37,996 nt of DNA from positions 1-37,996 of the IMG/VR virus record IMGVR_UViG_3300028829_002233. One strand, 5' to 3'. The DNA is from a virus. How positions within the stretch are numbered: position 1 is the first letter of the stretch; each line of letters begins with the position of its first letter. Below, piece by piece: positions 3,015 through 10,739 of this stretch. The position numbers were made by a program, and so were the translations under genes. Under the pieces are notes generated by a model that worked only from the letters and a program-made list of their open reading frames with translations, searched no databases and had not been told where the DNA came from.

Positions 3015-3626
3015 ATGGCTAATAAAAAAGCATTACCTAAATCCCATATTCCTGCAAAACCCCAAGGCCGACCCAAGAGAACTAAGATCCAACCTCTGAC
3101 ACGACGTCAAGAATTGTTTGTGAAAGAACTTGTTTCTAAGGACGGTCAAATCACAATGCGCGAAGCCGCTATAAATGCAGGCTACCCTGCGAGCTCTGCT
3201 CACACGAGAGCTTATGAACTTACTAACCCAAATCATTCGCCTCATGTTGTCAACGCTATCCAAGCTTATCGAGCTGAATTGGATCAAAAGTTTGGTGTCA
3301 ATTATCAAAGGCATTTAAAAGACCTCCAAACCATTCGAGATATGGCTTTGACTAATGGAGCTTATTCGGCGGCTGTTCAGGCCGAGTACCGAAGAGGACA
3401 AGCGCAAGGTCAGATCTATATTAACAAGTCTGAGATTAGGACAGGATCGATTGATAGTATGTCGAAAGATGAAGTCTTGAAAGCATTAAAGGAGATTAAA
3501 CAAAGTTATGCCCCAATCACTATCGACGTTACTGCCGCAGGATCGGCAAATTCCTCAAACCGCTCAAAAGCGAGAAGCCGACTTATGGACGAAGATGAAG
3601 AAGGGGATGAAGGACTCGAAGCGTAA
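3015..3626 (+). CDS. terS: Terminase small subunit
   Basis: The DNA-recognition subunit of the packaging motor, which binds the pac or cos site and hands DNA to TerL. After a basic tail (KPQGRPKRTKIQ) comes the Terminase_2-type core LTRRQELFVKELV, then MREAAINAGYPASSA, the usual helix-turn-helix. A central oligomerisation-type helical region follows, and an acidic C-terminus (MDEDEEGDEGLEA). The 203-residue length is normal. Its 3' end overlaps the nuclease gene by 119 bases. The large subunit lies 5.6 kb away, beyond the small-gene cassettes, which is unusual because the two are normally adjacent. Confidence 0.85.
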   Translation: MANKKALPKSHIPAKPQGRPKRTKIQPLTRRQELFVKELVSKDGQITMREAAINAGYPASSAHTRAYELTNPNHSPHVVNAIQAYRAELDQKFGVNYQRHLKDLQTIRDMALTNGAYSAAVQAEYRRGQAQGQIYINKSEIRTGSIDSMSKDEVLKALKEIKQSYAPITIDVTAAGSANSSNRSKARSRLMDEDEEGDEGLEA

Positions 3627-3972
3627 CTTTCAAGCGACCCGTTTAGAAACTTGGGCCACTCCCGGTGTTCCTGACGTAGTTTTATTGGACGAAAAAGGTA
3701 ACTTTCACTTTATTGAATTAAAGGCTACCAGTAGCAAAGCGGTGGACTTACGCCCGCATCAAGTTGCTTGGTTATGTAACCACAGGCATGGAAGCGTTTG
3801 GGTTCTTGTAAAGAAATTAAAAACTAAAAAACTAGAGCAACAGCTCTTTTTGTTTGACGGTTCTGATGCAATGGATCTTAAACTGGAGGGCTTAAAATTT
3901 ACGCCCAAATTACATCAAATAAAAGATTTTGATTGGAGTGAAGTTTTTAACTTGATTAGTCCTATAGATTAG
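3508..3972 (+). CDS. VRR-NUC-like PD-(D/E)XK nuclease
   Basis: A predicted Mg-dependent endonuclease of the Holliday-junction-resolvase-like superfamily, here perhaps helping to resolve or trim replication concatemers before packaging. The motif order is visible: EADLWTKMKKG (residues 23-33), GVPD with catalytic D56, the IELK motif with E70 and K72, and HQVAWL with Q85. I chose the ATG at 3508 because EADLW-x-x-MK is a normal family N-terminus. Starts at 3595 or 3607 would remove it but would avoid the long overlap with terS. Confidence 0.8.
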   Translation: MPQSLSTLLPQDRQIPQTAQKREADLWTKMKKGMKDSKRNFQATRLETWATPGVPDVVLLDEKGNFHFIELKATSSKAVDLRPHQVAWLCNHRHGSVWVLVKKLKTKKLEQQLFLFDGSDAMDLKLEGLKFTPKLHQIKDFDWSEVFNLISPID

Positions 3973-4165: not shown

Positions 4166-4178
4166 CGGGAGAATAAAA

Positions 4179-4448
4179 ATGACTATGTTGACTAAAGATG
4201 AAATAAAGGAATTGAAGGTTGCTTCAGTAATCTCAAATTTTAAAAAACAATTAATGAGAAAGTGGGAAAGAAAAGGTGGATATGAAAACTTCGGTGCAAA
4301 AGAAGAAAATACAATAAGAGAAATGTTTAAGGTAAATATTGGTTCCCCCTCTGAAAGAAAAATTTCAAAAATGATTAATGAATTTCATAACTGGGCAAAC
4401 GATTACGAAGGTGACAAATGTGAGATATGGAGGGGTTATAATGACTAA
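4179..4448 (+). CDS. Hypothetical charged helical protein (89 aa)
   Basis: I place the start at ATG 4179, behind ACGGGAGAATAAAA, rather than at an upstream TTG inside the previous gene. The protein is helical and basic (SNFKKQLMRKWERKGG) with no recognised motif. Its end overlaps the next start by 8 bases (GGTTATAATGACTAA), so the two are coupled. It belongs to the AT-rich small-gene block after terS. Function unknown. Confidence 0.65.
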   Translation: MTMLTKDEIKELKVASVISNFKKQLMRKWERKGGYENFGAKEENTIREMFKVNIGSPSERKISKMINEFHNWANDYEGDKCEIWRGYND

Positions 4449-4921: not shown

Positions 4922-4946
4922 AACCTCGCTTTGGCGGGGTTTTTTT
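4922..4946 (+). terminator. Intrinsic terminator closing the 4016-4901 block
   Basis: AACCTCGC (4922-4929) pairs with GCGGGGTT (4934-4941) through eight positions including one G-T, around TTTG, followed by T to 4946. The cassette promoter at 4952 starts six bases later, so terminator and promoter form one joined unit. Confidence 0.85.
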
Positions 4947-4951
4947 AGGGC

Positions 4952-4980
4952 TTGTATTCTATCGCATATTATTCTATATA
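4952..4980 (+). promoter_or_regulatory. Cassette promoter A
   Basis: TTGTAT (4952-4957), spacer 17, TATATA (4975-4980). The spacer contains TATCGCATA (4960-4968), shared with other promoters of the window. The next 20 bases run into the AACTTTAAA leader element (4993-5001). This sequence closely matches the promoter at 5551-5579. Confidence 0.75.
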
Positions 4981-5031
4981 TGTGACATCTTAAACTTTAA
5001 AAAAAAATAACAACAACAAATGGAGAGACTA

Positions 5032-5271
5032 ATGACTAAACCATATGAATATTTTGTAGTGGTAGCCAGTGGTGAGTTTTTACTTTCGAACTTCCCTTCT
5101 GAAGATATGTCAAAAGATGAAATGTTTGAATTCTTTACAGATAACGTTTGTGAAGGGTATGAGTGGAATCTTCCTGAAGACCTACTAGAGAAGATATACA
5201 ACCTTGCTCACACCTTAGAAAACATCTACACTTTAGGATACAAGGAAGGTGTAGAAAGCTTTAACCAATAA
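5032..5271 (+). CDS. Hypothetical acidic protein (79 aa), first gene of cassette A
   Basis: I use ATG 5032, behind AATGGAGAGACTA, the usual ribosome site of this block, not the in-frame ATG 12 bases upstream. The protein is acidic (NFPSEDMSKDEMFEFFTDN) and helical at the end (LGYKEGVESFNQ). No family is recognised. It has its own promoter (4952-4980) and is followed after 32 bases by a second small gene without a terminator between, so the two share a transcript. Confidence 0.65.
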   Translation: MTKPYEYFVVVASGEFLLSNFPSEDMSKDEMFEFFTDNVCEGYEWNLPEDLLEKIYNLAHTLENIYTLGYKEGVESFNQ

Positions 5272-5303
5272 AGAGAATAATAAACTTTAAAAAAGGAAAC
5301 AAT

Positions 5304-5489
5304 ATGGGTAATTATAAATATATTGTATGGGTCGGTGGTTGTGAGGACTACTATAGTACATACGAGAGAGCAAAAGAACACTATGACGAATGGATTGATA
5401 AAGGATATGATGACGTACACATACTGGAGATATTAGCCTCTACTGAATCACCTTTACCTTATAGCCCAATAGACGTTTTGACTTGGTGA
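5304..5489 (+). CDS. Small hypothetical protein (61 aa) with YIVWVGG start
   Basis: ATG 5304 follows AAAAGGAAACAAT and the AACTTTAAA element at 5283-5291. The protein begins NYKYIVWVGGCEDYYSTYER and continues with EHYDEWIDKGYDDVHILEIL, a pattern I associate with short hypothetical proteins of marine phages, with a beta-strand, helix and beta-strand order. No function is known. Second gene of cassette A; the terminator at 5523 ends the transcript. Confidence 0.65.
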   Translation: MGNYKYIVWVGGCEDYYSTYERAKEHYDEWIDKGYDDVHILEILASTESPLPYSPIDVLTW

Positions 5490-5522
5490 AAGGGAATCTA
5501 TGAAAACCTTTAAAATGAAATG

Positions 5523-5547
5523 CCGCCTCTTTGGGGCGGTTTTTTTT
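5523..5547 (+). terminator. Intrinsic terminator of cassette A
   Basis: CCGCCTC (5523-5529) pairs with GGGGCGG (5533-5539), one G-T included, around TTT, then eight T (5540-5547). The next promoter starts at 5551, only three bases after the T run. Confidence 0.85.
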
Positions 5548-5550
5548 GTC

Positions 5551-5579
5551 TTGTATTCTATCGCATATTATCTTATACT
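5551..5579 (+). promoter_or_regulatory. Cassette promoter B
   Basis: TTGTAT (5551-5556), spacer 17, TATACT (5574-5579). The spacer holds TATCGCATA (5559-5567). The promoter and leader, up to the AACTTTAAA element at 5592-5600, are near-identical to promoter A, although the genes they drive are unrelated. Confidence 0.75.
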
Positions 5580-5612
5580 TCTAACATCTTAAACTTTAAA
5601 GGATCAAAAAAA

Positions 5613-5843
5613 ATGAAAGTTTCAAATTTTATAAGTAACTTATTCAATGAATATGAAAGCGCTTTTCATAGTGAATACCGCAAAGATGGCGAGCTTTACC
5701 GCCTTTACGAATTAGCCGAGCCTCTTCCCCGTGCTGAACTTAAAAAAATTAGAAAGCGTAAAGACGTTACTAGTTGCGCAATTCAATGCGAATACGCGCC
5801 CGAGATTGTCCGCCCCGCTTTTGCTGTTAAGTGGGAGTCTTAA
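5613..5843 (+). CDS. Hypothetical protein (76 aa), first gene of cassette B
   Basis: ATG 5613 lies behind AAAGGATCAAAAAA. The protein is helical and charged (SNLFNEYESAFHSEYRKDGE, then PRAELKKIRKRKD). It ends in EIVRPAFAVKWES. No family is recognised. The stop codon is followed with no gap by the ATG of the Cys-rich gene, so the two are translated together. It may be a partner or regulator of that protein. Confidence 0.65.
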   Translation: MKVSNFISNLFNEYESAFHSEYRKDGELYRLYELAEPLPRAELKKIRKRKDVTSCAIQCEYAPEIVRPAFAVKWES

Positions 5844-6554
5844 ATGTTAAAAATTGTCGAAACATCCACCGCAAAAAAAACAGTCGGACTCGCGATAACC
5901 TACCGCGCGGGATCTAAAGATAAGTATGGAACTTGTCCGAGCGTCTGCCCCTTAAACTGCTCAAAAAAGAAAGAGAAAGAAAAGGTAGACTCCGACTACC
6001 TCGACGCGCTCTTGAAAGCTAAACCCAAGCGGGGTTTATCATTCACCTACTCCGCCGCCGACCCGTCTAATTATGCCCACCGACTAAACGAGGACTCAAC
6101 AGTTATAAATTACAGCGCGCCGACTCCTGACGTAGCCGTTGAAAAATTCAAAACAATGCCCGTCGCTGTTGTCTATCCTTGGAAACCCGAACAAAAAAAC
6201 GCGAGGCATAAAGGCGCTTTAATCGTTCGTTGCCCTGCTGAATATAAAGCCGTTAGGGGTTGCGCGGACTGTGGCGGCGGCGTCCCGCTTTGCGCAAGAT
6301 TAAATCGAAATTATATAATTGGATTTGAGCCCCACGGGGCACAGAAAAAAAAGGCCGCCGACCCAAACATAAAAGGCGGATGTTATGCCGCCAACGGTCA
6401 CACTAATCTACATTGGACGGCTACCACCTTGCAAGAGCAAGGGGATGAAACCGACGCCGAGCGCGTGACTCGTTTTGTTCGAGGCTTGCCGCCAAGGGCT
6501 ATTATTCGCCATCACATAGCTGGCGACGTGATGCAAGACTCCGCACAGGATTAA
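5844..6554 (+). CDS. Cys-rich HHIAGD-motif phage protein (DUF7227/GP88-like, unknown function)
   Basis: A 236-residue protein with a strikingly conserved-looking set of residues: GTCPSVCPLNC (C31, C35, C39), C130, C140-x2-C143, C150, GGCYAANGHTNLHW (C180), and RHHIAGDV (H223, H224, D228) at the end. I recognise the layout as a phage family of unknown function (DUF7227 or GP88-like; the exact family name is from memory). Clustered Cys plus invariant His/Asp suggests a metal- or Fe-S-bound enzyme, not a structural protein. It is coupled to the 76-aa gene before and ends just before the hairpins at 6568-6617. Confidence 0.7.
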   Translation: MLKIVETSTAKKTVGLAITYRAGSKDKYGTCPSVCPLNCSKKKEKEKVDSDYLDALLKAKPKRGLSFTYSAADPSNYAHRLNEDSTVINYSAPTPDVAVEKFKTMPVAVVYPWKPEQKNARHKGALIVRCPAEYKAVRGCADCGGGVPLCARLNRNYIIGFEPHGAQKKKAADPNIKGGCYAANGHTNLHWTATTLQEQGDETDAERVTRFVRGLPPRAIIRHHIAGDVMQDSAQD

Positions 6555-6567
6555 AACAGTTAAATAA

Positions 6568-6623
6568 GGCGGGCTCCGCCCCTCGGCCGTTGCTCCAAAC
6601 CTACGAGGCGCAACGGCTTTTTT
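6568..6623 (+). terminator. Double hairpin terminator of cassette B
   Basis: A first stem GGCGG/CCGCC (6568-6572 with 6576-6580) is followed by a perfect 8-bp stem GCCGTTGC/GCAACGGC (6586-6593 with 6610-6617) and six T. CCTCG (6581-6585) can alternatively pair with CGAGG (6604-6608), so the two folds compete. The next promoter follows at 6635. Confidence 0.8.
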
Positions 6624-6634
6624 CATATGCGATA

Positions 6635-6663
6635 TTGACAAGGGGCTGTTATTCGTCCATAAC
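6635..6663 (+). promoter_or_regulatory. Cassette promoter C
   Basis: TTGACA (6635-6640), spacer 17, CATAAC (6658-6663). An inverted copy of TATCGCATA lies directly upstream of the -35 box (6626-6634, read TATGCGATA). The leader carries AACTTTAAA at 6686-6694. Confidence 0.6.
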
Positions 6664-6710
6664 GGGTCATGAGCCACGGCTCTAAAACTTTAAAAAATGG
6701 AGAATTAACT

Positions 6711-7031
6711 ATGAAAAATATTTTTACAATAACGCTGGAACCCGTTGACGTTCGCGCCGTGATAGACGCGAATAATATTAAATGGAAACCGACGGACGCT
6801 CAATGTATCGACATTCTTGAGGAGGCTTATAGAATCAGTTGCAAAACCAACGAGGTAGGGTTGAGCGAGTCTACTATTTTATGGGCCATTGAAGAGCACC
6901 TAGACTTTGACGACTTTTGCAAAGAGGAGTTAAACACCGACTCCGATATCTACAGATATGGTTGTAAAAATTGGGAAGAAGAACTTGCGGAATCCAAGGC
7001 GCAAAACGTTTGGGGGTATGGTGATGTTTGA
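6711..7031 (+). CDS. Hypothetical acidic protein (106 aa), first gene of cassette C
   Basis: I use ATG 6711, behind AATGGAGAATTAACT. The protein starts MKNIFTITLEPVDVRAVIDA and is mostly helical and acidic (EEHLDFDDFCKEELNTDSD). No motif is recognised. Its end overlaps the next gene (start 7024) by eight bases. It has its own promoter (6635) and no close neighbour upstream. Confidence 0.65.
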   Translation: MKNIFTITLEPVDVRAVIDANNIKWKPTDAQCIDILEEAYRISCKTNEVGLSESTILWAIEEHLDFDDFCKEELNTDSDIYRYGCKNWEEELAESKAQNVWGYGDV

Positions 7032-7281
7032 TATTTATTGCTCACGTTGCGGAGAAGCTTGGTCGCAAGACTACTTGCACGAACCCGAAGAATTAGACGG
7101 GCCAGAAAACCTAACATATGAGAAAGCCGCTCACCTGTTTAGAGCTAATGGCTGTGGTTTGTTTCAACCCGAGCCGAGCCCCTGTAAACGTCCCCCGATA
7201 CAAGCCGCTGAAAAACTGCTTGCAATTAAAGCGGGCCAATCTTTGAGCGAACACCCTGACGAGTGGGCAGGCTTTATTTGA
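7024..7281 (+). CDS. Zinc-ribbon-like hypothetical protein (85 aa)
   Basis: The ATG at 7024 is preferred because GGGGG lies seven bases upstream; ATG 7018 is also possible. The N-terminus MFDIYCSRCGEAWSQDYLHE contains C6-x2-C9, and a second pair GC-x(10)-C follows (NGCGLFQPEPSPCK). I recognise the start as a widespread phage hypothetical family of the type 'xDIYCxRCGExWxxDxLH'. A structural zinc site is likely, the function unknown. It is the last gene of cassette C. Confidence 0.65.
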   Translation: MFDIYCSRCGEAWSQDYLHEPEELDGPENLTYEKAAHLFRANGCGLFQPEPSPCKRPPIQAAEKLLAIKAGQSLSEHPDEWAGFI

Positions 7282-7316
7282 TTAAATCTTGAGCCGCGAA
7301 CCATTAACCCTTGAAA

Positions 7317-7347
7317 GGTCGCCTATCTCCGTTGGCGGCCTTTTTTT
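7317..7347 (+). terminator. Intrinsic terminator of cassette C
   Basis: GGTCGCC (7317-7323) pairs with GGCGGCC (7334-7340), including one G-T, across a 10-base loop, followed by seven T. The right arm and the T run are identical to the terminator at 7961 and are joined to the next promoter by ATGGGAG. Confidence 0.8.
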
Positions 7348-7354
7348 ATGGGAG

Positions 7355-7384
7355 TTGACTCCTTATCGCATATCATCCTATAAG
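7355..7384 (+). promoter_or_regulatory. Cassette promoter D
   Basis: TTGACT (7355-7360), spacer 18, TATAAG (7379-7384), with TATCGCATA in the spacer (7364-7372). Transcription should start near 7391, exactly where the leader hairpin begins. Confidence 0.8.
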
Positions 7385-7390
7385 TAAGTG

Positions 7391-7406
7391 GCGGGAACAA
7401 TTCCGC
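7391..7406 (+). promoter_or_regulatory. 5' leader hairpin of cassette D
   Basis: GCGGG and TCCGC (7391-7395 with 7402-7406) can pair with one G-T around a six-base loop. The hairpin lies at the expected 5' end of the mRNA and recurs at 8026-8041 and 8663-8678. Such 5'-terminal hairpins are known to slow mRNA decay. Confidence 0.55.
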
Positions 7407-7431
7407 GCAAACTTTAAAACGGAGAATCAAA

Positions 7432-7932
7432 ATGACAAATACACAAGAAAAAATGAGCGATATTGAATTTAATGTTAGGTCAATAGTTAATGATATTGAA
7501 CAAGGCATTACAATTACAAAAGACGATATTGAGTTTAATAATTATGACACTGATTATCGTGAAGGCGATATGTTATCAGCATATGACTATAGAGGGGACG
7601 TACAAGAAACAACATATCTAGTACATAAAAATGATTTAAATGATTTTAATGCAGATGATTTTCATAAATGGGACAATGAATATTATAGATTATCCGAAAC
7701 AGATTACAAAGAATTGCTAAAAATTAACCCCGATCATATATGCGAAGGCTTTGCAATTCTTGTATCTTATGGTGGACCAAATATTTGGATCAATACAAAG
7801 GATAGACAAGTTGAGGGTTACTGGTGGGGCGATAACTTTACCTTACCATATAAGAATGATGAGATGGGCATTCATGATTGCGAAATTGATTTAATAGGGT
7901 GTAACCTTATATTATACGGGTTCCATCCATAA
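7432..7932 (+). CDS. Hypothetical AT-rich protein (166 aa), single gene of cassette D
   Basis: ATG 7432 follows ACGGAGAATCAAA, a ribosome site identical in three cassettes. The N-terminal half is acidic and Asn/Asp-rich. The C-terminal half reads GFAILVSYGGPNIWINTKD and VEGYWWGDNFTLPY, a pattern I have seen in short phage and plasmid proteins of unknown role. The gene is visibly richer in A+T than its neighbours, which suggests separate acquisition. It has its own promoter and its own terminator (7961). Confidence 0.65.
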   Translation: MTNTQEKMSDIEFNVRSIVNDIEQGITITKDDIEFNNYDTDYREGDMLSAYDYRGDVQETTYLVHKNDLNDFNADDFHKWDNEYYRLSETDYKELLKINPDHICEGFAILVSYGGPNIWINTKDRQVEGYWWGDNFTLPYKNDEMGIHDCEIDLIGCNLILYGFHP

Positions 7933-7960
7933 ATACATAACAACGGAGGATTAATAAAAG

Positions 7961-7985
7961 GGCCGCCACTGGGCGGCCTTTTTTT
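7961..7985 (+). terminator. Intrinsic terminator of cassette D
   Basis: A perfect 7-bp stem GGCCGCC/GGCGGCC (7961-7967 with 7972-7978) around ACTG, followed by seven T. The next promoter begins at 7993. Confidence 0.9.
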
Positions 7986-7992
7986 ATGGGAG

Positions 7993-8020
7993 TTGACTTT
8001 ATTGCATATAATTCTATAAG
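7993..8020 (+). promoter_or_regulatory. Cassette promoter E
   Basis: TTGACT (7993-7998), spacer 16, TATAAG (8015-8020). The sequence from the terminator T run through this promoter is almost the same as at cassette D. The shared motif is degenerate here (TTGCATA). Confidence 0.75.
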
Positions 8021-8025
8021 GGGGT

Positions 8026-8041
8026 GCGGGAATAATTCCGC
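8026..8041 (+). promoter_or_regulatory. 5' leader hairpin of cassette E
   Basis: GCGGG (8026-8030) and TCCGC (8037-8041) pair with one G-T. The position relative to the -10 box is the same as in cassettes D and F. The 3' arm differs from cassette F in a way that keeps pairing. Confidence 0.55.
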
Positions 8042-8065
8042 GCTTTGTCAAAACGGAGAATCAAA

Positions 8066-8572
8066 ATGACAACACAAACTAAAAAAGCAAAGTTCGCGCC
8101 TATAAATTTATTGGTCGAGGATTTAATTACGGATATTAAATTCAATCCTCTTAAGAGCAAACATCTCGACCAGTGGACACCCCCGCAACAAAGAGAAATG
8201 GCGGGACTTCTTCCCCGCTTCTTTCTTTCTGCTTTTTACGATATCGTCGAAGCTTTAACAGACAACAACCTATTCACCATTAGAGTTGAAGAGTTGTTTA
8301 CTAAACTTAAAACAGGCGTGAGTAATAAGTATCACTACGGGTCAGGTTTTACTAATGCCGCACATTGGAAAAAAGGTAATGTCGATAATGTAGGACTTTA
8401 CACCTACCCAAAAGACTCCGACCTTAGCCCAGTGATGACTTTAAATATTAAAGCTTCGGATTATAAGAATGAGGAGTGGGCTACTATCATATCCTGCCAT
8501 ATCTACGAAAGCGGTATGATAGCCATACGGAATCAAGTATCAGGTGAATGGGATATGACTCGAATGGATTAA
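8066..8572 (+). CDS. Hypothetical protein (168 aa), single gene of cassette E
   Basis: I use ATG 8066, behind ACGGAGAATCAAA, rather than an in-frame TTG in the leader. The protein begins MTTQTKKAKFAPINLLVEDL. A helical middle follows (LLPRFFLSAFYDIVEAL), then a Gly/Tyr-rich stretch and ATIISCHIYESGMIAIRNQ, probably a beta hairpin. No family is recognised. It has its own promoter, leader hairpin and terminator, like the neighbouring cassettes. Confidence 0.65.
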   Translation: MTTQTKKAKFAPINLLVEDLITDIKFNPLKSKHLDQWTPPQQREMAGLLPRFFLSAFYDIVEALTDNNLFTIRVEELFTKLKTGVSNKYHYGSGFTNAAHWKKGNVDNVGLYTYPKDSDLSPVMTLNIKASDYKNEEWATIISCHIYESGMIAIRNQVSGEWDMTRMD

Positions 8573-8597
8573 CCCGACTCAACCAAGACAAGGAAGG

Positions 8598-8620
8598 CCG
8601 CCCTCGAGGCGGTTTTTTTT
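8598..8620 (+). terminator. Intrinsic terminator of cassette E
   Basis: CCGCC (8598-8602) pairs with GGCGG (8608-8612) around CTCGA, followed by eight T. The stem, loop and T run are identical to the terminator at 8960-8982. Confidence 0.85.
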
Positions 8621-8627
8621 ATGCCAT

Positions 8628-8657
8628 TTGACATATCATTCTATATCATTCTATAAG
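8628..8657 (+). promoter_or_regulatory. Cassette promoter F
   Basis: A perfect TTGACA (8628-8633), spacer 18, TATAAG (8652-8657). The spacer repeats TATCATTC where the other promoters have the TATCGCATA motif. Confidence 0.8.
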
Positions 8658-8662
8658 GGGGT

Positions 8663-8678
8663 GCGGGAATTACCCCGC
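8663..8678 (+). promoter_or_regulatory. 5' leader hairpin of cassette F
   Basis: GCGGG (8663-8667) and CCCGC (8674-8678) pair perfectly. Compared with cassettes D and E the 3' arm changes from TCCGC to CCCGC, turning a G-T into a G-C pair, which supports a selected RNA structure. Confidence 0.6.
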
Positions 8679-8702
8679 GCTTTGTCAAAACGGAGAATCA
8701 AA

Positions 8703-8930
8703 ATGACAGTATCAACAAAACAAATCGAGACTATAAAATTTCAACTTGAGTTCATGGTTATGATGCAGGATTGCGGAAGGTTGGCCGAGGCTAACCAAAG
8801 CCTGTTGAAAATCACTACACTAATGAACCAACTCTTCGGGGTTGATGCCGTTTGGATTTTAAGGCGCGACCTGTTCGAGGCGTTAAAGTCTATTAACGAA
8901 GGACACCGAAACGAGTTAGAGGAGGCGTAG
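8703..8930 (+). CDS. Small helical hypothetical protein (75 aa), single gene of cassette F
   Basis: I use ATG 8703, behind ACGGAGAATCAAA, the third identical ribosome site. The protein looks all-helical (ETIKFQLEFMVMMQDCGRLA, then DLFEALKSINEGHRNEL). No family is recognised. It is the last gene before the terminator at 8960 and the intergenic region upstream of the large terminase. Confidence 0.65.
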   Translation: MTVSTKQIETIKFQLEFMVMMQDCGRLAEANQSLLKITTLMNQLFGVDAVWILRRDLFEALKSINEGHRNELEEA

Positions 8931-8959
8931 ATTCCAATTAGAATTTTAAAAACGAAAGG

Positions 8960-8982
8960 CCGCCCTCGAGGCGGTTTTTTTT
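8960..8982 (+). terminator. Intrinsic terminator of cassette F
   Basis: CCGCC (8960-8964) pairs with GGCGG (8970-8974) around CTCGA, then eight T. It is an exact copy of the terminator at 8598, and the following bases ATGCC also match. No promoter follows directly, so this is the end of the cassette array. Confidence 0.85.
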
Positions 8983-9037: not shown

Positions 9038-9065
9038 AAAACGCTCTTAGCAGGCATCCTATAGG
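9038..9065 (+). repeat. 28-bp dispersed repeat, copy 2
   Basis: Matches 2035-2062 at 25 of 28 bases, same orientation. Together the two copies bracket the genes from 2108 through cassette F, including terS. This copy lies 211 bases before the terL start. Confidence 0.6.
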
Positions 9066-9207: not shown

Positions 9208-9248
9208 TCCTATATTTATGCTTTTTATCGCATACTATATGTGCTAAG
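9208..9248 (+). promoter_or_regulatory. Candidate late promoter 1 (terL/portal block)
   Basis: The sequence starts TCCTATATTT (9208-9217), contains TATCGCATA (9226-9234) and a TATATG box, and ends TGCTAAG (9242-9248). The same start and end, with a similar centre and almost the same length, occur at 15800-15841. It lies 28 bases before the terL start codon. Confidence 0.6.
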
Positions 9249-9275: not shown

Positions 9276-10739
9276 ATGAGCTTAGATAAAAATGTATTGT
9301 TAGAAGAGAAGAAACTTAAGTTAGAGCTTCGTCTTGCACAGCTCGAGAAGAATGATAAATGTAAAAATGATTTTTTAACTTTTGTAAAAACGGTTTGGCC
9401 TGATTTCATCGCGGGCCGTCATCATAAAATCATTGCGGAGAAGCTAGAGCGCGTGGCGCGTGGTGAGTTGAAGCGTTTAATTATTAATATGGCTCCGCGG
9501 CACACGAAGAGTGAGTTTGCTTCCTATTTATTTCCTGCGTGGTTCATGGGCCGTATGCCGAATAAGAAGATTATTCAAGCGACGCATACGACGGAACTTG
9601 CGGTAAACTTTGGTCGTAAGACTAAGAACTTGTTGGAGTCTGATGAGTTTCGAGATATTTTTCCTGAAGTAAAGTTAGCGGCAGACAGTAAGGCTAGTGG
9701 TCGGTGGGACACGAACAAGGGTGGAATGTATTATGCGGTGGGTGTGGGTTCAAACCTCGCGGGCCGTGGTGGTGACTTAGTGATTATTGATGACCCGCAT
9801 TCGGAACAGACGGCTATGTCTAATTCAGGATTTGAGGATGCTTGGGATTGGTACACTGGGGGCCCCCGCCAGAGGCTCCAACCGGGAGGTTCTATTGTTT
9901 TGGTTCAAACGCGGTGGTCCGAGAAGGATATGACGGGTCAACTTTTAAAAGCTATGGCTAAAGATCCATTAGCGGATCAATGGGAAGTTGTTGAGTTACC
10001 TGCAATTTTTGATGACGGGACCCCTTGTTGGCCTGAGTTTTGGAGCCTCGATGATTTAATCTCGGTCCGCGCATCTATACCCGCGTCTAAATGGAACGCG
10101 CAATATCAACAAAAACCTACGGGTGAGGAAAACGCTATAATAAAGCGTGAGTGGTGGAATATATGGGAAAAGGAGAAGATACCACAGCTTGAGTATGTTA
10201 TACAAAGTTATGATACGGCGTTTAGTAAAAAGCAGACGGCTGACTTTTCTGCGATTACGACGTGGGGCGTGTTTTATCCTAATGAGGGTGGTTCGGGTCC
10301 CAATATTATTTTATTAGATAGTAAGAAGGGTCGTTGGGATTTTCCTGAACTTAAGCAGATTGCTTTAGATAATTATAAATTTTGGGAACCGGACTCAGTT
10401 ATTATAGAAGCGAAAGCGAGTGGGACCCCTTTGACACAAGAATTAAGAAATCTAGGAATACCCGTTGTTAACTTTACACCGAGCCGCGGTAATGATAAGG
10501 TGACACGAGTACATAGTGTATCACCACTTTTCGAAGCGGGTATGGTTTGGGCTCCTGATGAAACATTTTCGGATGAATTGATTGAGGAGGTTGCAGCTTT
10601 TCCGAATGGGGAGTATGATGACTTAGTTGATAGTATGACACAAGCCTTGATGCGTTATAGACAAGGCAACTTTGTTCAGCTACCAACAGATGACTGGGAT
10701 CAAGAGGAAACCTCTGCTAGAGTAAAGGTTTATTATTAA
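9276..10739 (+). CDS. terL: Terminase large subunit (packaging ATPase and nuclease)
   Basis: The motor that cuts concatemeric DNA and pumps it through the portal. The ATPase domain has a Walker A-like APRHTKSE (residues 73-80), Walker B LVIIDDP (168-174), and a QTRW coupling motif (211-214). The RNase H-fold nuclease has SYDTA with D312, IIEAKASG with E378, and YDDLVDS with acidic residues near 448-452. The 487-residue length is normal. The start ATG follows CTAGGGACCCCT and the late promoter sequence at 9208-9248. The small subunit lies 5.6 kb upstream, not next door. Confidence 0.95.
   Translation: MSLDKNVLLEEKKLKLELRLAQLEKNDKCKNDFLTFVKTVWPDFIAGRHHKIIAEKLERVARGELKRLIINMAPRHTKSEFASYLFPAWFMGRMPNKKIIQATHTTELAVNFGRKTKNLLESDEFRDIFPEVKLAADSKASGRWDTNKGGMYYAVGVGSNLAGRGGDLVIIDDPHSEQTAMSNSGFEDAWDWYTGGPRQRLQPGGSIVLVQTRWSEKDMTGQLLKAMAKDPLADQWEVVELPAIFDDGTPCWPEFWSLDDLISVRASIPASKWNAQYQQKPTGEENAIIKREWWNIWEKEKIPQLEYVIQSYDTAFSKKQTADFSAITTWGVFYPNEGGSGPNIILLDSKKGRWDFPELKQIALDNYKFWEPDSVIIEAKASGTPLTQELRNLGIPVVNFTPSRGNDKVTRVHSVSPLFEAGMVWAPDETFSDELIEEVAAFPNGEYDDLVDSMTQALMRYRQGNFVQLPTDDWDQEETSARVKVYY

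Follow-up and report, generated by a model that had tools for sequence, protein, structure and literature searches.

Phages gain and lose small host-takeover genes fast, and the junctions involved have mostly decayed too far to reveal the mechanism. The interval between terS and terL of the virus record IMGVR_UViG_3300028829_002233 (a linear contig of 38 kb, all 37,996 nucleotides of which are termed the window here) raises the question of whether repeated regulatory DNA can deliver such genes. It contains six composite units between small genes on the same strand, and near relatives keep intermediates, namely hybrid units in which the crossover could be mapped and a gene that was taken over exactly from its start codon to its stop. 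A first-pass annotation of this DNA likened the units to the promoter early stem-loop (PeSL) cassettes of T4-type phages, in which, as reportedly described by Arbiol et al. (2010) and Comeau et al. (2014), a terminator stem-loop and a sigma70-like promoter are repeated between the small non-essential genes of a variable genome region and the copies recombine and shuffle those genes. The locus is probably a modular array, in a lineage of short-tailed marine phages, whose transcription units act autonomously and recombine with one another. The direct evidence consists of the repeated units, hybrids at two indels, varied cassette order and content, capture of a bare open reading frame (ORF), concerted evolution and covariation of a leader hairpin; from these we infer promoter and terminator activity, a role for the hairpin, early timing of expression and a recombination enzyme.

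Each unit comprises, in order, a GC-rich terminator hairpin with a T run, a putative sigma70-like promoter, a leader, and a ribosome-binding site (RBS) with the start codon (Table 1). Every unit terminator folds well, and terminator-like sites number 32 in the first 20 kb against 18.4 expected. Three subclasses can be distinguished: A (U1 and U2), B (U4–U6) and C (U3). The subclass A units have TTGTATTCTATCGCATATTAT in common and no leader hairpin. Those of subclass B share the terminator, TTGACT/A ... TATAAG, a 5' hairpin of the form GCGGGA-N-TTCCGC and the 3' end AACGGAGAATCAAAATGACA, and continue through the RBS to the second codon with the conserved end ATGACA (Met and Thr codons). U3 is not matched by R1, a sequence model of the unit. 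The first-pass description of six terminator–promoter–leader–RBS units between terS and terL is borne out, and the coordinates given there (7317-7431, 7961-8065, 8598-8702, 4922-5031 and 5523-5612) are correct to within a few bases.

Local alignment of the junctions, scored against dinucleotide shuffles, places their similarity far above background, with z = 38 for U5/U6, 33 for U4/U5, 23 for U4/U6 and 20 for U1/U2, compared with at most 5.5 for control intergenic regions. Comparison of U1 or U2 with U4 gives z = 12, and U3 is near background against most other units (z about 1–5). The close match claimed earlier between U1 and U2 therefore holds; the description of U4, U5 and U6 as near-identical is somewhat strong for U4, which departs from the other two in the spacer and the terminator loop. 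The motif TATCGCATA is present in exactly five copies in the window (4960, 5559, 6626 on the minus strand, 7364 and 9226), compared with 0.2 expected and a maximum of 2 in shuffles. All copies are confined to unit promoters and the region upstream of terL, and the motif is possibly a regulator site or a promoter core.

Table 1. Features of the array and its flanks in window coordinates (R1 scores in bits; L003, L004, L006 and L083 are related contigs).
Feature	Position	Strand	Description
terS	3015-3626		
U1, subclass A	4922-5031	+	Terminator, putative promoter TTGTAT-17-TATATA, leader without hairpin, RBS; R1 22.5 bits
Cassette genes 5032-5271, 5304-5489	5032-5489	+	Absent from L083 and L003; without family match above curated cut-offs
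U2, subclass A	5522-5612	+	Leader without hairpin; terminator folds well; similar to U1
Genes 5613-5843, 5844-6554	5613-6554	+	5844-6554 is a DUF7227 protein, conserved in the clade
U3, subclass C	6581-6710	+	Long-stem terminator, TTGACA-17-CATAAC, GAGC/GCTC leader hairpin, RBS
Cassette genes 6711-7031, 7021-7281	6711-7281	+	The first stands behind U1 in L003
U4, subclass B	7315-7431	+	5' leader hairpin; R1 62.1 bits
Putatively captured cassette gene	7432-7932	+	92% nucleotide identity to an ORF of unrelated phages
U5, subclass B	7961-8065	+	Leader hairpin; R1 75.6 bits
Clade-core gene	8066-8572	+	Alleles 26-58% identical in amino acids in relatives with terL 98-99% identical in DNA
U6, subclass B	8598-8702	+	Leader hairpin; R1 62.2 bits
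Cassette gene	8703-8930	+	Order relative to 8066 reversed in L003, L004 and L006
Closing terminator	8957-8980	+	Bare; identical to the U6 terminator; ends the array
TATCGCATA motif	9226-9234	+	Upstream of terL; motif shared with the unit promoters
terL	9276-10739		

The window was compared with viral contigs whose terL is 84–100% identical (L001–L080) and with further relatives collected via terS and via the unit pattern. In keeping with the first-pass proposal of gene exchange at the units, the same genes are not kept in the same order (L083, L003 and the cassettes of the clade). L083, a single 5.4 kb metagenomic contig that is for the most part 91–99% identical to the window in nucleotides, lacks genes 5032 and 5304 at U1/U2 and gene 7432 at U4/U5. 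Both gaps run exactly from one unit to the next and one unit remains per site: the terminator side of U1 joined to the leader side of U2 in the first case, and the terminator and −35 element of U4 joined to the leader of U5 in the second. A single-switch model fits 65 of 70 (U1/U2) and 50 of 52 (U4/U5) informative sites, a fit matched by 0 of 10,000 permutations, and both switch points fall inside the promoter and are located to within 5–7 alignment columns. Exact stretches common to the units measure about 20–30 bp, and the hybrid units carry private differences absent from either parent unit. As far as can be judged from these alignments, the hybrids are direct support for a PeSL-like mechanism. 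L083 also differs from the window away from the units, with a different stretch around window 6935-6970 and an extra gene near window 4171-4186. The latter lies between 16-nucleotide RBS–start repeats (L083 942-957 and 1169-1184) with no unit, which suggests microhomology capture without a full unit.

The terS and terL proteins of L003 are 100% identical to those of the window, yet its array differs. Behind U1 lies gene 6711', whose homology to the window starts within the leader (window 6681), U3 is followed by a new gene, and 8703' and 8066' are in the opposite order, the 8066-type gene running straight into the closing terminator. L003 and L004, which come from separate metagenomes, agree in gene order. 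The U3 unit is also found in L003, L083 and L002, ahead of differing genes. In L002 the terL is 99% identical in DNA, but the 8066-type protein behind the unit is just 26% identical.

R1 has hits in tens of related contigs, without exception on the strand of terL, and cassettes 8066, c6 and c11–c15 stand behind a unit in varied orders and combinations across the clade. In whole records (about 21–57 kb) strong matches are confined to the terS–terL interval, and three control contigs from unrelated loci gave no match. No unit was matched within the E-value limit of the search in the nearest named phages, HTVC027P and 023Pt_psg01, and none in DSL-LC04; the array therefore seems to be specific to the clade of the window. 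It is hardly credible that the units are themselves mobile DNA elements (a miniature inverted-repeat transposable element or a site-specific cassette system) inserting between genes. Such insertion would explain why the 8066 and 8703 families are adjacent without an intervening unit in other relatives and separated by one in the window and L083. However, copies elsewhere, terminal repeats and a recombinase, which characterize site-specific cassettes and transposable elements, were not found for the window units: strong matches occur nowhere else in whole records, the orientation is always the same, terminal inverted repeats are not evident and no recombinase was recognized among the genes of the region.

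For all 32 units compared, similarity to the sibling units of the same genome exceeds that to the median cross-clade ortholog, and for 20 of them it also exceeds that to the best ortholog. These results indicate that the units in one genome have been homogenized by concerted evolution, although part of the likeness could stem from co-adaptation to a regulator specific to the lineage.

Gene 7432 points to a second way in which the array may acquire genes. Its homologs in L172–L174 are 84–92% identical in nucleotides and that in L175 77%; L172 and L173 represent phages with an unrelated terL, about 52–55% identical to that of Sulfitobacter phage pCB2047-A and others. The homology begins at the ATG, with the upstream 80 nucleotides 24–29% identical and the ORF body 92% identical (L172), and stops at the stop codon of the ORF in the other phage. 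Since the match runs exactly from start codon to stop, the gene appears to have entered as a bare ORF behind a resident unit, with the regulatory unit staying in place and the gene as the moving part. At the junction the start reads ATGACA, which is also the conserved 3' terminus of subclass B units, giving a six-base microhomology. Transfer into the lineage of the window would be the simpler direction, because the gene is absent from the near relatives examined (L083, L003, L006 and L002).

The leader hairpin covaries across the clade. A hairpin between the −10 element and the RBS is present in 71 distinct leaders (mean z of −2.4 against mononucleotide shuffles), and the own arms beat chimeric arms in 67 of the 71 (p = 2 × 10−4). 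In a class with a GGGCAA loop, five of six pairs are changed on both sides; this class was picked by hand by its loop, from which the invariance of the loop follows. In bacterial mRNA decay a 5'-terminal hairpin can stabilize the mRNA, and a stabilizing function is therefore the first guess; most likely, the hairpin either keeps the short mRNAs stable or serves as a protein-binding site.

A cassette would accordingly be a small gene or gene pair behind a terminator, a sigma70-like promoter, a structured 5' leader and an RBS. At each unit the preceding transcript would stop and a new one would begin from a promoter that the host polymerase recognizes, and any gene set between two units could thus be expressed independently of its neighbours. 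As direct repeats, the units would permit homologous recombination through about 20–40 bp of near-identity in the promoter, which would remove, add and reorder cassettes and homogenize the units within a genome. New ORFs could also be captured right behind a unit, at the conserved ATGACA end. A more far-reaching model, that of a clade-wide 'open cassette dock', is tentative. It would have a fixed locus with one composite unit that recombination homogenizes in each genome, acting as a crossover site and as an acceptor, at the start codon, for bare ORFs of unrelated co-infecting phages, and its leader hairpin (with a GGGCAA loop in sister clades) would be a regulatory RNA to which a phage or host protein binds. 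If this model is true, captured ORFs would gain instant expression.

Several observations weigh against recombination between autonomous units. The fraction of broken junctions is 0.47 with a unit versus 0.72 without one over all pairs, where small spurious ORFs from the simple ORF caller used may inflate the non-unit figure, and 0.51 versus 0.50 among close relatives. As unit junctions are not broken more often, the whole region appears to be hypervariable, with the units as one turnover route among others. A consensus promoter scan shows no excess (39 sites versus 39.9 expected) because TATAAG fails the scan rule, and the identity of the promoters consequently rests on conservation. Covariation of the hairpin is not demonstrable in the subclass of the window itself, where the sequences vary too little. 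Finally, both hybrid units come from one metagenomic contig, in which misassembly at repeats is possible.

The equal frequency of turnover at non-unit junctions could arise if the units were ordinary promoter–terminator spacers, alike through selection for the same host polymerase and regulator, and mere bystanders of turnover by general illegitimate recombination at gene ends. The extra gene of L083, flanked by RBS–start repeats with no unit, and the joining of gene 7432 at the start codon and not in the promoter would also fit this explanation. It is nevertheless unlikely, given that both L083 indels leave a hybrid unit that switches parent once, cleanly, inside the promoter, and that the similarity is not limited to the promoter hexamers and is stronger inside one genome than across genomes, a pattern not readily expected from functional selection alone. 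It is very improbable that the cassette indels and hybrid units are short-read assembly artefacts at repeats. The origin of both hybrids in the single L083 contig and the exact sharing of about 20–30 bp between units would allow such errors, but the hybrids have differences found in neither parent unit, L003 and L004 agree although they derive from different metagenomes, and the combinatorial pattern recurs in many independent contigs. Recombination between the units of a modular array is thus retained as the preferred explanation.

The resemblance to PeSLs extends to several features. The window units combine a stem-loop terminator with a sigma70-like promoter (recognized by conservation alone) and are repeated in one genome, they sit among small genes of no known function in a variable region, and indels or replacements between close relatives are bounded by units, with recombination inside them (two hybrids in one relative). 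PeSLs are said to be defined by promoter and terminator activity in vivo and by encapsidated mini-circles. Unlike in a PeSL system, turnover in the window is not concentrated at units over other junctions, the phage is not a T4-type myovirus (its terL is nearest to those of HTVC027P and HTVC023P), the array forms one compact locus between terS and terL, the units add a structured 5' leader hairpin and reach through the RBS and second codon, and the lineage also captures genes as bare ORFs at the start codon. Architecture and recombination pattern match those reported for the PeSLs, whereas lineage, location, leader hairpin and start-codon capture differ. The PeSL-like pattern proposed in the first-pass annotation is partly supported: recombination within units is seen in the two L083 hybrids, but the units are one route of turnover among others, at least one gene entered as a bare ORF, and membership of the PeSL family cannot be claimed because the lineage differs and the units have an additional covarying 5' leader hairpin.

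Other repeated elements offer partial parallels. A gene-shuffling role is stated for the PeSLs of T4-type phages (PMC4503421) and suggested for PeSL-like motifs of the haloarchaeal virus HGTV-1 (PMC3950731), and the halovirus HF2 has promoter-bearing intergenic repeats that were tested as promoters (PMC8707807). Both haloviruses resemble the window in having repeated intergenic promoter elements in tailed viruses but differ in their archaeal TATA-type promoters, and cassette recombination at the repeats is not described for HF2 in the portion available (PMC8707807). The SAS/ESAS elements of cluster K mycobacteriophages are 13-bp GGGATAGGAGCCC-type elements 3–7 bp before start codons, distributed across the genome's right half and of unknown function according to the article (PMC3203893). 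Like the window units, they are conserved at the start codons of non-structural genes, and about half have an upstream inverted repeat; unlike them, no terminator is described as part of the element in the available text. No GGGATAGGAGCCC-type element was found in the window units, the 3' end of which reads AACGGAGAATCAAAATGACA. Morons, which are self-contained promoter–gene–terminator insertions in lambdoid phages, likewise place between other genes a gene that brings its own promoter and terminator, but have no common repeated regulatory unit acting as recombination homology. The array suggests PeSL-like shuffling outside T4-type phages, allows tests of how new phage genes are delivered and expressed in a marine lineage that is frequent in virome data, and could supply a DNA signature, the unit, for locating accessory-gene islands in marine viromes.

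The first-pass annotation also described the array as an accessory island, but one of its genes, 8066-8572, is of a family present in most relatives examined. The predicted structure of this family is confident (predicted local distance difference test score of 87) and has no significant match in the PDB or BFVD; a single-sequence model of the 7432 protein is poor. Searches of the cassette proteins against Pfam, PHROGs, NCBIfam and PADLOC gave only DUF7227 (5844), DUF932 (c2 in relatives) and Kyano_Gp96 (c11 in relatives) above cut-off, and an anti-defence role for the cassette proteins can therefore not be claimed. A search for relatives of gene 5032 found none, an Rfam search gave nothing near the gathering score and a tRNA search found none. 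The DUF932 protein (396 residues) lies directly before the first unit in most relatives (e.g. L030 6312-7502) and is not seen in the window or L003.

The nearest named terL proteins are those of Pelagibacter phages HTVC023P and HTVC027P (55–63% identity), and phages of the HTVC023P type have been described as Podoviridae (PMC9599517). The record encodes a portal and a DNA-ejection-type protein, consistent with a short-tailed virion. Matches to terL in assembled genomes fall in alphaproteobacterial metagenome-assembled genome bins and one unassigned bin, the former being a weak hint of an alphaproteobacterial host.

Two further observations concern the flanks of the array. An ORF for a VRR-NUC-like nuclease (3508-3972) shares 119 bases with the 3' end of terS in another frame, and this overlapping pair is kept in relatives. 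A 28-nucleotide repeat lies on either side of the terS-to-terL block (2035-2062 and 9038-9065). Its first copy is part of a stretch (2014-2065) that is 81–85% identical to L172 3347-3398, L173 4695-4746 and L177 312-363, where it reads as a coding end (NHTK..KRSQR.S) near the 7432 homolog of those unrelated phages.

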